DNA from: Planctomycetaceae bacterium
GTDB taxonomy: Bacteria > Planctomycetota > Phycisphaerae > SM23-33
Direction: 5' to 3'
DNA: 64,000 nt
Assembly: GCA_039680605.1 (NCBI GenBank)
Contig: JBDKTA010000004.1
Coordinates: forward strand, 124,001-188,000
Below, in pieces: positions 1,964-39,132 of this stretch (positions are counted from its first letter, which is position 1; each line of letters begins with the position of its first letter). Below the pieces are notes generated by a model. That model was not told where the DNA came from and did no database searches. It saw only the letters and a program-made list of their open reading frames with translations. The position numbers were made by a program, and so were the translations under genes.

Positions 1964-2572
1964 ATGGTCATCGCCTCGCACATCATCATGACCGGGTACG
2001 GACACTGGTTACCCAACGACCCGCGCGGGAGTCTCTCAAGGGAACTGCGCGAAGTGAAGCTCGCTCCTCTGGGCGAAATTCATTTCGGTCGCAAAGCGAT
2101 ACAACCCACGCGCGAGCAGTTGCGGGCGTTCCACAAAGCTGCGAAAGAGCAACTGGAGCATCCGATCCTCTGGTTTGAGCAACCTCACCGCGCTGCCATC
2201 GCCCAAGCGATCGCGCAGGTTGTTCAGGAAGATCGCCTCACCTGCTACGCCTGCGCCATCCTCCCCAATCACGTCCATCTGCTCATCCGCCGCCACCGCC
2301 AGACGCCCCAAGTCACCCTGCATCGACTGCGAACACTTTCTCGAGAACTGCTGCGCACGCGAGAACTTTGTCCCCACGAGCACCCCATCTGGAGCGCCGA
2401 CGCCTTCACCCTCTATAAGGACAGCATTCAGCAGATGCGGACGTGCATCGCCTATATTGATGGCAACCCTCCCAAACACCGGTTGCCCCCGCAGCGATGG
2501 GATTTCGCGGTGCCATATGACAACTGGCCTTTCCATAAGCTCAATTCCTCAGGCATCGCGGATGAAACCTGA
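1964..2572 (+). CDS. REP-associated tyrosine transposase (RAYT; IS200/IS605 Y1 family)
   Basis: A 202-aa HUH single-strand transposase. The early block GYGHWLPNDPRGS (11-23) is typical of RAYT-like Y1 proteins. The metal-binding HUH motif is HVH at 103-105 in LPNHVHLL, and the likely catalytic tyrosine is Y164 in AYIDGNPPKH. The gene is intact. Its GC content is visibly lower than that of its neighbours, consistent with transfer. There are no flanking IS ends, as expected for RAYTs, which are domesticated and act on palindromic REP/BIME elements elsewhere in the genome. Many such palindromes occur in this window (see repeats). No strong ribosome site is visible, so the start rests on homology-like N-terminal residues. 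A small palindrome with T-rich tail (2574-2589) follows. Confidence 0.85.
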   Translation: MVIASHIIMTGYGHWLPNDPRGSLSRELREVKLAPLGEIHFGRKAIQPTREQLRAFHKAAKEQLEHPILWFEQPHRAAIAQAIAQVVQEDRLTCYACAILPNHVHLLIRRHRQTPQVTLHRLRTLSRELLRTRELCPHEHPIWSADAFTLYKDSIQQMRTCIAYIDGNPPKHRLPPQRWDFAVPYDNWPFHKLNSSGIADET

Positions 2573-5614: not shown

Positions 5615-6637
5615 TTACGTCGCAGGAGGCCCCGACGCAAGGGCATTCGCCATCGCCAGCACCTGTTGCGGCGAGAGGTCCTGCGGACGGTCCGCCGCCC
5701 GGGCGCCGGCCGCTTCGAGCGCAGCGAGATTCATCCCGCTCTTGCGCAGGATGGTCCCGATCTGTTTTCGGCGATGGCCAAAAAGCGTCGAGAGCAAATC
5801 CTGCAGCAGGTCCAGGTTGGCGACTGCGGCGCCCCCCGCGGCGTCAACGTCGATCCGCATCATGCGGCTGTACACGTTCGGCGCCGGCCAAAATGCCGTC
5901 GGCGGCAGGACCGGCCCCAGCATGCATCGCCCCAGCAGCGCCACGAGGATGCTGACGGGCCCATACTCGCTGGAACCGACGGCGGCCGTGAACCGCTCGG
6001 CCACCTCCCGCTGCACGGTAAACGTCAACCGCTCGAACACCGTAGCATGGGCATCTTGCCCATGAGTCGCATGGGCGTCTCGCCCATGCTCCCCCTCTTG
6101 TGGCATGGGCGTCTCGCCCATGCTCCCGGTGGCATGGTCGCCCCGCCCATGCTCCCCGTCGTCCCCATCCTTCAAGACCAGCGGTGAGACGCCCGTGCTA
6201 CGGCGCATCGCGTGCCAAGACTCGATCAGGCACTGCGCCACCAGCGGCGTGGCAATGTTGTACGGCAGATTGGCCACCAGGTGCGCTGCGCCGCCGAGGC
6301 GTTGCATGATCGCGGGATTGATCTGGTGCTTGCCCGACAGGGCGTCGGCATGCAGCAGCGTGACGTTGCCCAACCGCGCCAGGCGCGGCCAGAGCATCCG
6401 GTAAAGTCCGGCGTCGATTTCGACGGCCACGACGGCCGCGGCGCGGGCGGCGAGTTCTTCGGTCAGCGCGCCGGTTCCGGGCCCCACCTCGAGCACGGTC
6501 GCTCCGGGCGGCACGTCGGCCAGTTCCAGCAGGAGGCGCATGAGGTTCTGATCGATCAGGAAGTTCTGACCGAACTTGCGATTGGGCGCCAGTCCCGCCT
6601 CGTCGAGCATCGCCCGGATTTCCGTGAGCGTTTGCAT
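5615..6637 (-). CDS. rsmA: 16S rRNA (adenine1518/1519-N6)-dimethyltransferase RsmA with an in-frame repeat insertion
   Basis: RsmA (KsgA) dimethylates two adjacent adenines near the 3' end of 16S rRNA during small-subunit maturation. The window protein has FGQNFLIDQ near residue 23, the SAM motif VLEVGPGTGALTE near 50 and the catalytic NLPYN near 122, and continues through VQREVAERF to the C-terminal domain. It is 340 aa, about 55-70 longer than usual. The extra length is a block at about residues 145-198 encoded entirely by palindromic repeats at 6043-6202 (motifs SMGETPMP and HGRDAHATHG). The block stays in frame and falls between the NLPYN segment and the strand that follows, so the core fold can remain intact. 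The start has no visible ribosome site. Confidence 0.95.
   Translation of the reverse strand: MQTLTEIRAMLDEAGLAPNRKFGQNFLIDQNLMRLLLELADVPPGATVLEVGPGTGALTEELAARAAAVVAVEIDAGLYRMLWPRLARLGNVTLLHADALSGKHQINPAIMQRLGGAAHLVANLPYNIATPLVAQCLIESWHAMRRSTGVSPLVLKDGDDGEHGRGDHATGSMGETPMPQEGEHGRDAHATHGQDAHATVFERLTFTVQREVAERFTAAVGSSEYGPVSILVALLGRCMLGPVLPPTAFWPAPNVYSRMMRIDVDAAGGAAVANLDLLQDLLSTLFGHRRKQIGTILRKSGMNLAALEAAGARAADRPQDLSPQQVLAMANALASGPPAT
6043..6202. repeat. Cluster of ATGGGC-type palindromes inside rsmA
   Basis: Four hairpin units of the form CATGGGC-(5-7 nt)-GCCCATG lie at about 6045-6063, 6070-6088, 6103-6121 and 6132-6151, plus a partial CACGGGCGTCTCACC unit (inverted) at 6184-6202. The first is preceded by GTAG; three others are followed by CTCC, which reads GGAG on the opposite strand. 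Spacing is irregular and all units are self-complementary, unlike CRISPR. The same unit occurs at 10823-10845 and 38975-39132. Confidence 0.85.
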
Positions 6638-9801: not shown

Positions 9802-9816
9802 AGCGGCGGTTTGTGC

Positions 9817-11661
9817 ATGAGTATCGCATCGCATAGCGCGTCTTCGCGGGCGGCGGTTTCGCCGCAGAAGCGCCGCGCGCGATCGGCCCCCACGGCGCTG
9901 CAGATGGTCGAAGAGTCCATCCACCTGCTGCGAGTGGCCTCGCCGGCGACGCTGGGGCGGTACTACGCCGGAGCCCTGCCCTTCATCGCGGCGCTGCTGT
10001 ATTTCTGGTCGGACATGCTCTACGCCAACAGCGCCGCCCAGCGATGCACCCCCATGGCCCTGGGGCTGGCGCTGCTGTACCTGTGGATGAAACTCTGGCA
10101 GGGGGCGTTCTGCCGGCGCCTGATGGTCGCGGTGCATAACGGCGGGCAATCGCCAGCCGCACCGCAAGGGGCGCCCGCGGCGTTCAACTTCCGCGCCGCT
10201 GCCCGGACGGCGGTTCTCCACGCGATCGTTCAACCGCTGCAGTTGCTCCTGCCCGCCATCCCGCTGATGATGATCGCCGGCGAGAACAACGTTACGGCCG
10301 CATTCGTCATGCTGGTGGTGCTGCCGTGGTCGGTCGCGGCCTGGGGGCTGCTGGCGTGGCTGTACGCGTACTGCCAGAACCTGCTGGCGCTGGCGGGGGC
10401 GGGGCAGTCAGCCGCGGCGGTGCTGCGCCAGGCGTGGCGGGCGGTATTTTTCAGCTTCTCAACGCACGCCGCGACGCTGCTGATCCTGTCGCTGATGACA
10501 TGCGTGGTCTTCATCAACGTCTGCATCACCCTGGCGATGTTGCCGTACCTGCTGCGGATGCTCACCGGATGGGAGACATCGCTGACGCTCAGCGTCGGGT
10601 CGCTGCTGAACACGACGTTCTTCGCCATCGCCGCGGCACTGACGTTCCTGTGCGTCGATCCGCTCGTCAAAGCTCTGTACGTGCTGCGGTGCTTTTACGG
10701 CCAGGCGCGATTCACCGGGCAGGACCTGCTGGCCCAGGTTCGCCGCCAGGCCCTGCGCCGCCGCAGCGCCGCGCTGGTGGTGGTCGCGGTGGTTTTTACG
10801 ATCGGGCTGGCCGCCGGCCCAAGCATGGGCGAGACCCCCATGCCACACAACGGGACCGCCTCGCGGGCCGATCAGCTCGATCAGAGCATCGACAAGACCC
10901 TCCAGCGCAGCGAATACGACTGGCGCAGCCCCAATGAAAACAAAGCCGACAAGAGCGATGCGGCCTCGTTCTTCGACTGGTTGACCCGGAAGACCGATGG
11001 GTTCTTCCAGGTTGTGCGCAAGTTGTGGGAGGATTTTCGCCAGTGGCTGCGCGAGCTTGGGCAGGACCCGCCATCGCGTGAGGGCAGGCATTCGCCCGCC
11101 CGCCAAAGCGAGGACAATAGCGGGGGCGGTGGCGGCGGGATGGACCTCAGCGGCGGCGAAGCGGCTCTCAAGCTGCTGCTCTACGGGGCCATCGGCGTGG
11201 TCGCCGTGGCCGTTATCGTTCTGGCCGTCAAGTTGATCCGGGCGCGGCGGAAGAAAGATGATGACGACGCCGAAGCGCCCGCCGCCGCCAGCGAGGCGGC
11301 CCCGGACGTGGCCGACGAGACCGTCACCGCCGACGCCCTCAGCGAAGACGGGTGGATGTCGATGGCCGCCGAGCTGCTGGCCCGCGGAGAACTGCGCCTG
11401 GCGCTGCGGGCGATGTACCTGGCCAGCCTCAAGCAGCTCGCCCAGCGCGGGCTGATCCGAATTCAAAAGTTCAAGAGCAACCAGGACTATCGCCGCGAAT
11501 TGCAGCGCCGCGAGCACGTGGCCGGCGAACTGCTGGGCGCCTTCGGCGAAAACGTCGACCTCTTCGAGTACACCTGGTACGGCCTCCACGACGTCAGCGA
11601 GACCATGCTGGGCACCTTCACCGCCAACCAGGAAAGGATGCGCTCGCATGTCGAAGCTTGA
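9817..11661 (+). CDS. Large membrane protein with C-terminal DUF4129-like domain
   Basis: A 614-aa protein. The first half is a polytopic membrane region with about five to seven hydrophobic helices. It is followed by a helix near 322-337, a soluble charged stretch rich in Gly/Asp, a further transmembrane helix near 455-475, and a C-terminal DUF4129-like domain (MAAELLARGELRLALRAMYL and the FGENVDLFEYTWYGLHDV end). DUF4129 proteins commonly accompany MoxR and DUF58 genes. A palindromic repeat (10823-10845) is inserted in frame just after the membrane region and encodes SMGETPMP. Start is ATG 9817; an upstream TTG is less likely. Confidence 0.85.
   Translation: MSIASHSASSRAAVSPQKRRARSAPTALQMVEESIHLLRVASPATLGRYYAGALPFIAALLYFWSDMLYANSAAQRCTPMALGLALLYLWMKLWQGAFCRRLMVAVHNGGQSPAAPQGAPAAFNFRAAARTAVLHAIVQPLQLLLPAIPLMMIAGENNVTAAFVMLVVLPWSVAAWGLLAWLYAYCQNLLALAGAGQSAAAVLRQAWRAVFFSFSTHAATLLILSLMTCVVFINVCITLAMLPYLLRMLTGWETSLTLSVGSLLNTTFFAIAAALTFLCVDPLVKALYVLRCFYGQARFTGQDLLAQVRRQALRRRSAALVVVAVVFTIGLAAGPSMGETPMPHNGTASRADQLDQSIDKTLQRSEYDWRSPNENKADKSDAASFFDWLTRKTDGFFQVVRKLWEDFRQWLRELGQDPPSREGRHSPARQSEDNSGGGGGGMDLSGGEAALKLLLYGAIGVVAVAVIVLAVKLIRARRKKDDDDAEAPAAASEAAPDVADETVTADALSEDGWMSMAAELLARGELRLALRAMYLASLKQLAQRGLIRIQKFKSNQDYRRELQRREHVAGELLGAFGENVDLFEYTWYGLHDVSETMLGTFTANQERMRSHVEA
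10823..10845. repeat. Single ATGGGC palindrome inside the DUF4129 gene
   Basis: The unit reads GCATGGGCGAGACCCCCATG then CCA. It is one hairpin of the family clustered in rsmA and encodes SMGETPMP, identical to eight residues of the rsmA insertion. It stays in frame. Confidence 0.8.
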
Positions 11662-38974: not shown

Positions 38975-39132
38975 AGTAGCACGGGCGTCTCGCCCGTGAG
39001 TTCCACGGGCATCCTGCCCGTGGTCTTGGGTGGCATGGGCGTCTCGCCCATGCTCTTGGTTTCTGCACGGGCGGGACGCCCGTGCTACTCATGGGCAAGA
39101 CCTGCCTGCCGGCAGGCAAGTGCCCATGCTAC
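38975..39132. repeat. Array of GTAG-flanked CACGGGC/CATGGGC hairpins between GH4 and mttB
   Basis: The left end reads AGTAGCACGGGCGTCTCGCC followed by CGTG, and the right end GCCCATGCTAC, so GTAG marks both outer edges in inverted orientation. In between are further hairpins: CCACGGGC-GCCCGTGG (39003-39022), CATGGGC-GCCCATG (39033-39052), CACGGGC-GCCCGTG (39066-39083), and CCTGCCTGCCGGCAGGCA (39101-39118). The right edge supplies the TAG stop of the GH4 gene. Confidence 0.9.

Follow-up and report, generated by a model that had tools for sequence, protein, structure and literature searches.

Probable In-Frame Insertion of a GTAG-REP Element in rsmA of a Planctomycetaceae Bacterium and RAYT Genes Nested in Host Genes of Its Class

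Results and Discussion

The rsmA/ksgA gene of the Planctomycetaceae bacterium (5615..6637, minus strand, 340 aa) carries an array of GTAG-tagged REP palindromes within its reading frame (6042..6201, minus strand). The array comprises 160 bp, corresponding to about 53 codons (residues 146-199), and is very likely a nonautonomous GTAG-REP element that transposed in frame into a permissive surface loop of the protein. The gene lies in a stretch of 64,000 nucleotides, which will be referred to as the window. It matches TIGR00755 with 190.6 bits (cut-off 171) as well as PF00398, and no second rsmA above the TIGR00755 cut-off was found in this genome (G000).

The frame of rsmA is open across the whole array without a stop or frameshift, which bears out the sequence-only reading that a palindrome array of this length is read in frame within the gene. 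The palindromic units are built on GCATGGGCGTCTCGCCCATGC, and five of them were located. The GTAG-tagged unit 1 (6042..6069, plus strand) reads HGQDAHAT in the rsmA frame, unit 2 (6066..6093, plus strand) reads HGRDAHAT, unit 3 (6100..6127, plus strand), which has the same core as the most frequent unit in this genome, reads SMGETPMP, and the diverged unit 4 (6129..6156, plus strand) reads HGRGDHAT. The last is a degenerate inverted unit with an outward GTAG tag (6176..6201, minus strand; inverted repeats I1 and I2) that reads STGVSPL. The earlier description of four units and a partial one needs a small correction, since the unit nearest the 5′ side of rsmA is inverted with respect to the other four. 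This layout, with GTAG at 6042 and CTAC at 6201 as outer ends, is that of an inverted (HH-type) REP element expanded to an array rather than of a tandem.

The TIGR00755 match is interrupted exactly at the array, with positions 2-117 matched on one side, positions 119-256 on the other and 177 bp in between. At this site the protein encoded in the window reads SWHAMR[RSTGVSPL...HGQDAHAT]VFERLTF, and the insert occupies the loop that leads from the helix behind NLPYN to the following strand. In this methyltransferase fold, a loop entering this strand generally lies away from the SAM site. AlphaFold2 modelling with 30 relatives yielded pLDDT values of mostly 92-98 for the RsmA core and 44-52 for the insert; the latter was modelled as coil, preceded by helix 125-146 and followed by strand 199-208. 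The best Foldseek matches of the model were KsgA structures (6ift, 3fux). According to this model the RsmA fold is retained and the insert is left disordered. The loop position proposed from the sequence was thereby supported.

Some bacteria can do without KsgA, and one might consider that the enzyme was damaged by the insertion and that rsmA is a pseudogene in the making. We regard such decay as quite unlikely, as the window RsmA retains every column that is invariant in 18 RsmA homologues, the frame is unbroken, the coding score is normal on either side of the insert, and the core was modelled with high confidence.

The length of the insert is 1 mod 3, so that it is frame-neutral only with a change of 1-2 nucleotides at the site or a later change in the array. 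Element length was also considered as a built-in frame-keeping trait and rejected, as inverted elements with intact tags were distributed 6:3:3 over the classes 1:0:2 (mod 3) with no clear bias.

The array is absent in over 30 other RsmA homologues compared, and relatives have a short loop at this position, for example, SWRAMHEGRPGGFGRLTF in G005. This argues against an old RsmA domain and for a mobile array, as the sequence-only reading had assumed, and the sequence comparison indicates that the insertion is recent. The only other REP insert found in rsmA is that of G002, which belongs to the same family but another genus and carries [STGILPVRRMGVSPM...HGRDARAT] in the same loop. The inserts of G000 and G002 have lengths of 160 and 139 bp, respectively, and different spacers, while the units of G002 still match the REP consensus. 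The 300 nucleotides following the insert are only 59% identical between both genomes, with 45% identity at third positions. Since the flanks are saturated at third positions whereas the units are near consensus and the spacers differ, the two inserts very probably represent separate events. A single insertion common to both genomes was rejected on the same grounds; the RsmA tree does not decide, as the fork of G000 and G002 is open (AU p = 0.26 for holding both together).

Unrelated inserts were detected in the same rsmA loop of G006, G075/G182, G091 and G077, arguing for a permissive hotspot. In G075 and G182, which belong to another family, the long loop insert contains repeats of another GC-rich motif, GCCGAGGGCGGCGGYTCCACATTTT. 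In G247, G264, G280 and others, the RsmA match also falls into two pieces, but the break lies elsewhere, ahead of NLPY.

The mRNA strand of the insert folds with −86.4 kcal/mol (z = −6.4 versus shuffles), and the RNA hairpins possibly affect translation. This strong fold, together with the REP arrays in the same loop of two genera, would be in accordance with an insert that has been adopted by RsmA for a selected role, for example, rRNA contact or translation pacing by mRNA hairpins. Such a role appears unlikely, however, because the unrelated inserts speak for a permissive loop and not for a role tied to a particular sequence, spacer and length are not the same in the two REP inserts, and the insert is predicted to be disordered. 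Strong hairpins might also draw both ends of the insert together and allow removal of the segment from the RNA or the protein, as in introns or inteins, leaving a mature RsmA without it. We consider this highly improbable, as removal from the RNA would not need a kept frame, the array is variable and occurs in many hosts without any splicing feature, and Pfam yielded no match to an intein Hint domain in RsmA or in the RAYT hosts described below.

The window contains 11 matches to the REP pattern compared to 0.05 expected by chance. In the whole genome (5.23 Mb), 365 forward and 370 reverse matches were obtained at ≤3 mismatches and none with the reversed-pattern control; near-palindromic REPs count on both strands, so these numbers correspond to approximately 370 copies. 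The insert itself resembles 56 places in the genome, with up to 90% identity over 115 bp. Among 189 units scanned, the commonest tags were GTGG (62) and GTAG (53). The family thus shows the features of the GTAG-REP superfamily, namely, palindromes in the 20-40 bp range with a GTAG (or GTGG) tag at one end, a high copy number with mostly intergenic location, and RAYT association. The rsmA array has an inverted layout with outward tags and may have moved as one unit, as REPIN/BIME do.

Noncoding flanks were observed at 50 of the 79 REP clusters. Ten of 75 evaluable clusters lay in one open coding frame, compared to 251 of 600 random positions (42%), indicating that REPs are depleted from genes, yet far from absent. 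These intragenic counts are derived from a stricter scan, as a uniform 3-mismatch scan gave many single false matches, and cover 1.46 of the 5.23 Mb, part of it picked for known REPs. With approximately one in eight evaluable clusters of the sampled part in frame within genes, and a second genus carrying its own array in the same rsmA loop, the presumed rarity of such insertions was not supported for this genome.

Within the window, a single REP (10820..10846, plus strand) is read in frame as SMGETPMP in a DUF4129-like ORF (9802-11658; the DUF4129 match is just under the Pfam cut-off), and an intergenic array of the same family (38976..39112, no strand assigned) lies between two codirectional ORFs. 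Pfam-supported hosts of in-frame REPs elsewhere are an ABC transporter (two inserts), a U32 peptidase, a Lar_N protein and EtfB; TruB, a DUF255-type protein and a Ser/Thr kinase were recognized as further hosts by sequence. The Ser/Thr protein kinase (G000:C6:41474-43066) has its in-frame array in the activation loop, after DFG and ahead of APE. Those intragenic inverted elements that were examined start with a unit read as S/G[MT]G[VI]xP and end with one read as HGxDAxAT. The peptide ATHNSVVRVPD was observed beside REPs in two unrelated proteins (G000:C22:183314-184747 and G000:C21:97591-99942), and it may belong to another small repeat that moves together with the REPs.

Fifteen Y1_Tnp matches were obtained in the genome, only one of which (C4:19346-19918) is REP-flanked in the fetched flanks, with arrays of the rsmA-type family on both sides. 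This complete RAYT gene is nested in etfB (G000:C4:18785-20419) in one open frame of 545 aa, with ETF positions 2-88 and 87-180 matched at one end of the frame each. The gene immediately downstream belongs to the ETF family, and another ETF pair is encoded elsewhere in the genome. The nested domain matches PF01797 with 35.5 bits, corresponding to the Y1 transposase fold, and has the HUH motif and a putative catalytic tyrosine. MPNHVH and E.yDH are conserved in 23 RAYT sequences, and dN/dS was about 0.08-0.17 in close pairs with estimable dS. Judged from these sequences, the RAYT is under purifying selection and its HUH motif is intact. A further Y1_Tnp match in the window (2174-2395, plus strand) is weak, with 21.6 bits against a cut-off of 23, and may represent a diverged transposase; no REPs of the rsmA family were found in its fetched flanks.

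We propose that a REP element consisting of an inverted pair, which has grown into an array, transposed into the RsmA loop after the NLPYN helix. Both junctions preserve the frame of rsmA, the palindromes are stop-free in the frames used, and the product would be RsmA with about 53 extra hydrophilic residues that are probably disordered. Selection presumably purges frame-breaking insertions, with in-frame ones lasting in permissive loops. The likely mobiliser is the RAYT of this genome, an HUH tyrosine transposase nested in etfB between arrays of the same family, although the fourteen other Y1_Tnp matches weigh against this assignment. We infer this mobilisation, translation of the insert and retained RsmA activity, as well as activity of the RAYT fusion proteins.

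To see how widespread nested RAYTs are, genomes of the class were searched, and 52 of 397 contained a RAYT match. Among the RAYTs with at least 53% identity, 31 of 32 are located inside a longer host frame, the frames of G022 and G270 ending at contig ends. The host is valS in 18 genomes, at two sites (the editing-domain loop in 17 and the C-terminal part in G006), a DinG-like helicase in seven, and etfB in G000; restriction-modification-type genes, namely DUF1156, type ISP and methyltransferase-like genes, are hosts in single cases or pairs, with the hosts of G366, G321, G311, G070, G141 and G179 assigned by motif only. Pfam confirmed ValRS (two sites), the helicase, DUF1156 and type ISP as hosts. 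More distant RAYTs were found inside Eco57I/TaqI_C proteins, and the RAYT-bearing families are many across the class. Among the matches listed for G015, G020, G027 and G006, no valS other than the interrupted one exceeds the family cut-off. Relatives without a RAYT have a short valS loop at the RAYT site. The valS loop of G011 carries a lone REP-like STGVSPV at that site, which may be what is left of an insertion since lost. Among close RAYT relatives from outside the class, most are free-standing and some lie in long frames.

RAYT presence and REP number were positively associated in 40 genomes (p = 6e-5, kinship ignored). This link is correlative, as G024, G023 and G008 contain many REPs without a close RAYT match.

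Most genomes compared are draft assemblies, that of the window comprising 72 contigs, and repeats misassemble easily. An assembly or binning artefact is nevertheless hardly conceivable, as the insert is well away from the ends of its 294-kb contig and has intact rsmA sequence to either side, a similar insert is present in the unrelated assembly of G002, and more than 30 assemblies contain nested RAYTs.

Comparison with Known Systems

GTAG-REPs have been described as inverted dimers and groups within ORFs of several species by Di Nocera et al. 2013 (PMC3733652), who recognize 24 families; in that work, intragenic clusters encode 43-82 aa, truB is one of the hosts, and a recB insertion site is common to two Xanthomonas species. 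The elements described here resemble them as GTAG-tagged inverted palindromes within ORFs, including a truB host and shared sites. The host here is rsmA, which is not named in the main text of that paper, and the RAYTs there are not described as nested in host genes. The same paper refers to the Rickettsia RPEs, palindromic repeats inserted into the reading frames of numerous unrelated proteins that are probably functional. RPE-4 and RPE-6 are CGTC-type and RPE-1 is longer, whereas the rsmA element is tagged with GTAG rather than CGTC and goes with a RAYT; it is not an RPE but is RPE-like in behaviour.

Frame-keeping REP insertions are reported from within tnpA_REP genes of subclass 2.4 (PMC6006769). 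The nested RAYT is 2.4-like, with the NHVH HUH motif, WQ and Y..NP-type signatures and REP flanks, but differs in that it is carried in its entirety within the frame of another gene. As unexpectedly long proteins were left out of that study as gene fusions or annotation errors, nested RAYTs would have been hidden. The rsmA array shares with REPIN/BIME the two inverted REPs with outward tags, there a mobile unit, whereas rsmA-type units are expanded in tandem and have spacers that are not constant from copy to copy. Inteins with homing endonucleases are likewise DNA-cleaving mobile domains within conserved proteins, repeatedly at one site, as in the valS loop; in contrast, no splicing domain was found in the RAYT hosts, which appear to keep the domain as a permanent loop fusion.

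Intragenic REPs, the truB host, shared sites, Rickettsia RPEs and REP inserts in RAYT genes were thus already known, and the rsmA insert alone is another intragenic REP case. The new aspect is a transposase that resides within the reading frame of a gene that is probably essential; no description of RAYTs nested in tRNA synthetases or other host genes, or of nested HUH domains, was found in the mostly open-access literature searched, an absence that is weak evidence.

Conclusions

We consider it somewhat more probable than its opposite that in Phycisphaerae-type bacteria the RAYT is a permanent in-frame passenger of essential or housekeeping proteins, which is expressed by its host and guarded against loss. 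REP arrays would serve as flexible linkers, and the RAYT-less element would seed other loops, for example, that of RsmA. This reading bears on the open question of how REP/RAYT systems maintain a transposase over long periods without obvious benefit: with an in-frame RAYT in a sole-copy valS, a stop or frameshift in the RAYT would destroy the host enzyme, and the RAYT would be coexpressed with its host. The rsmA insert represents a small testable example, as the uninserted loop is present in relatives. If true, nesting would be a new way of maintaining a transposase and would provide a direct route for mobile DNA to add loops and domains to conserved proteins.
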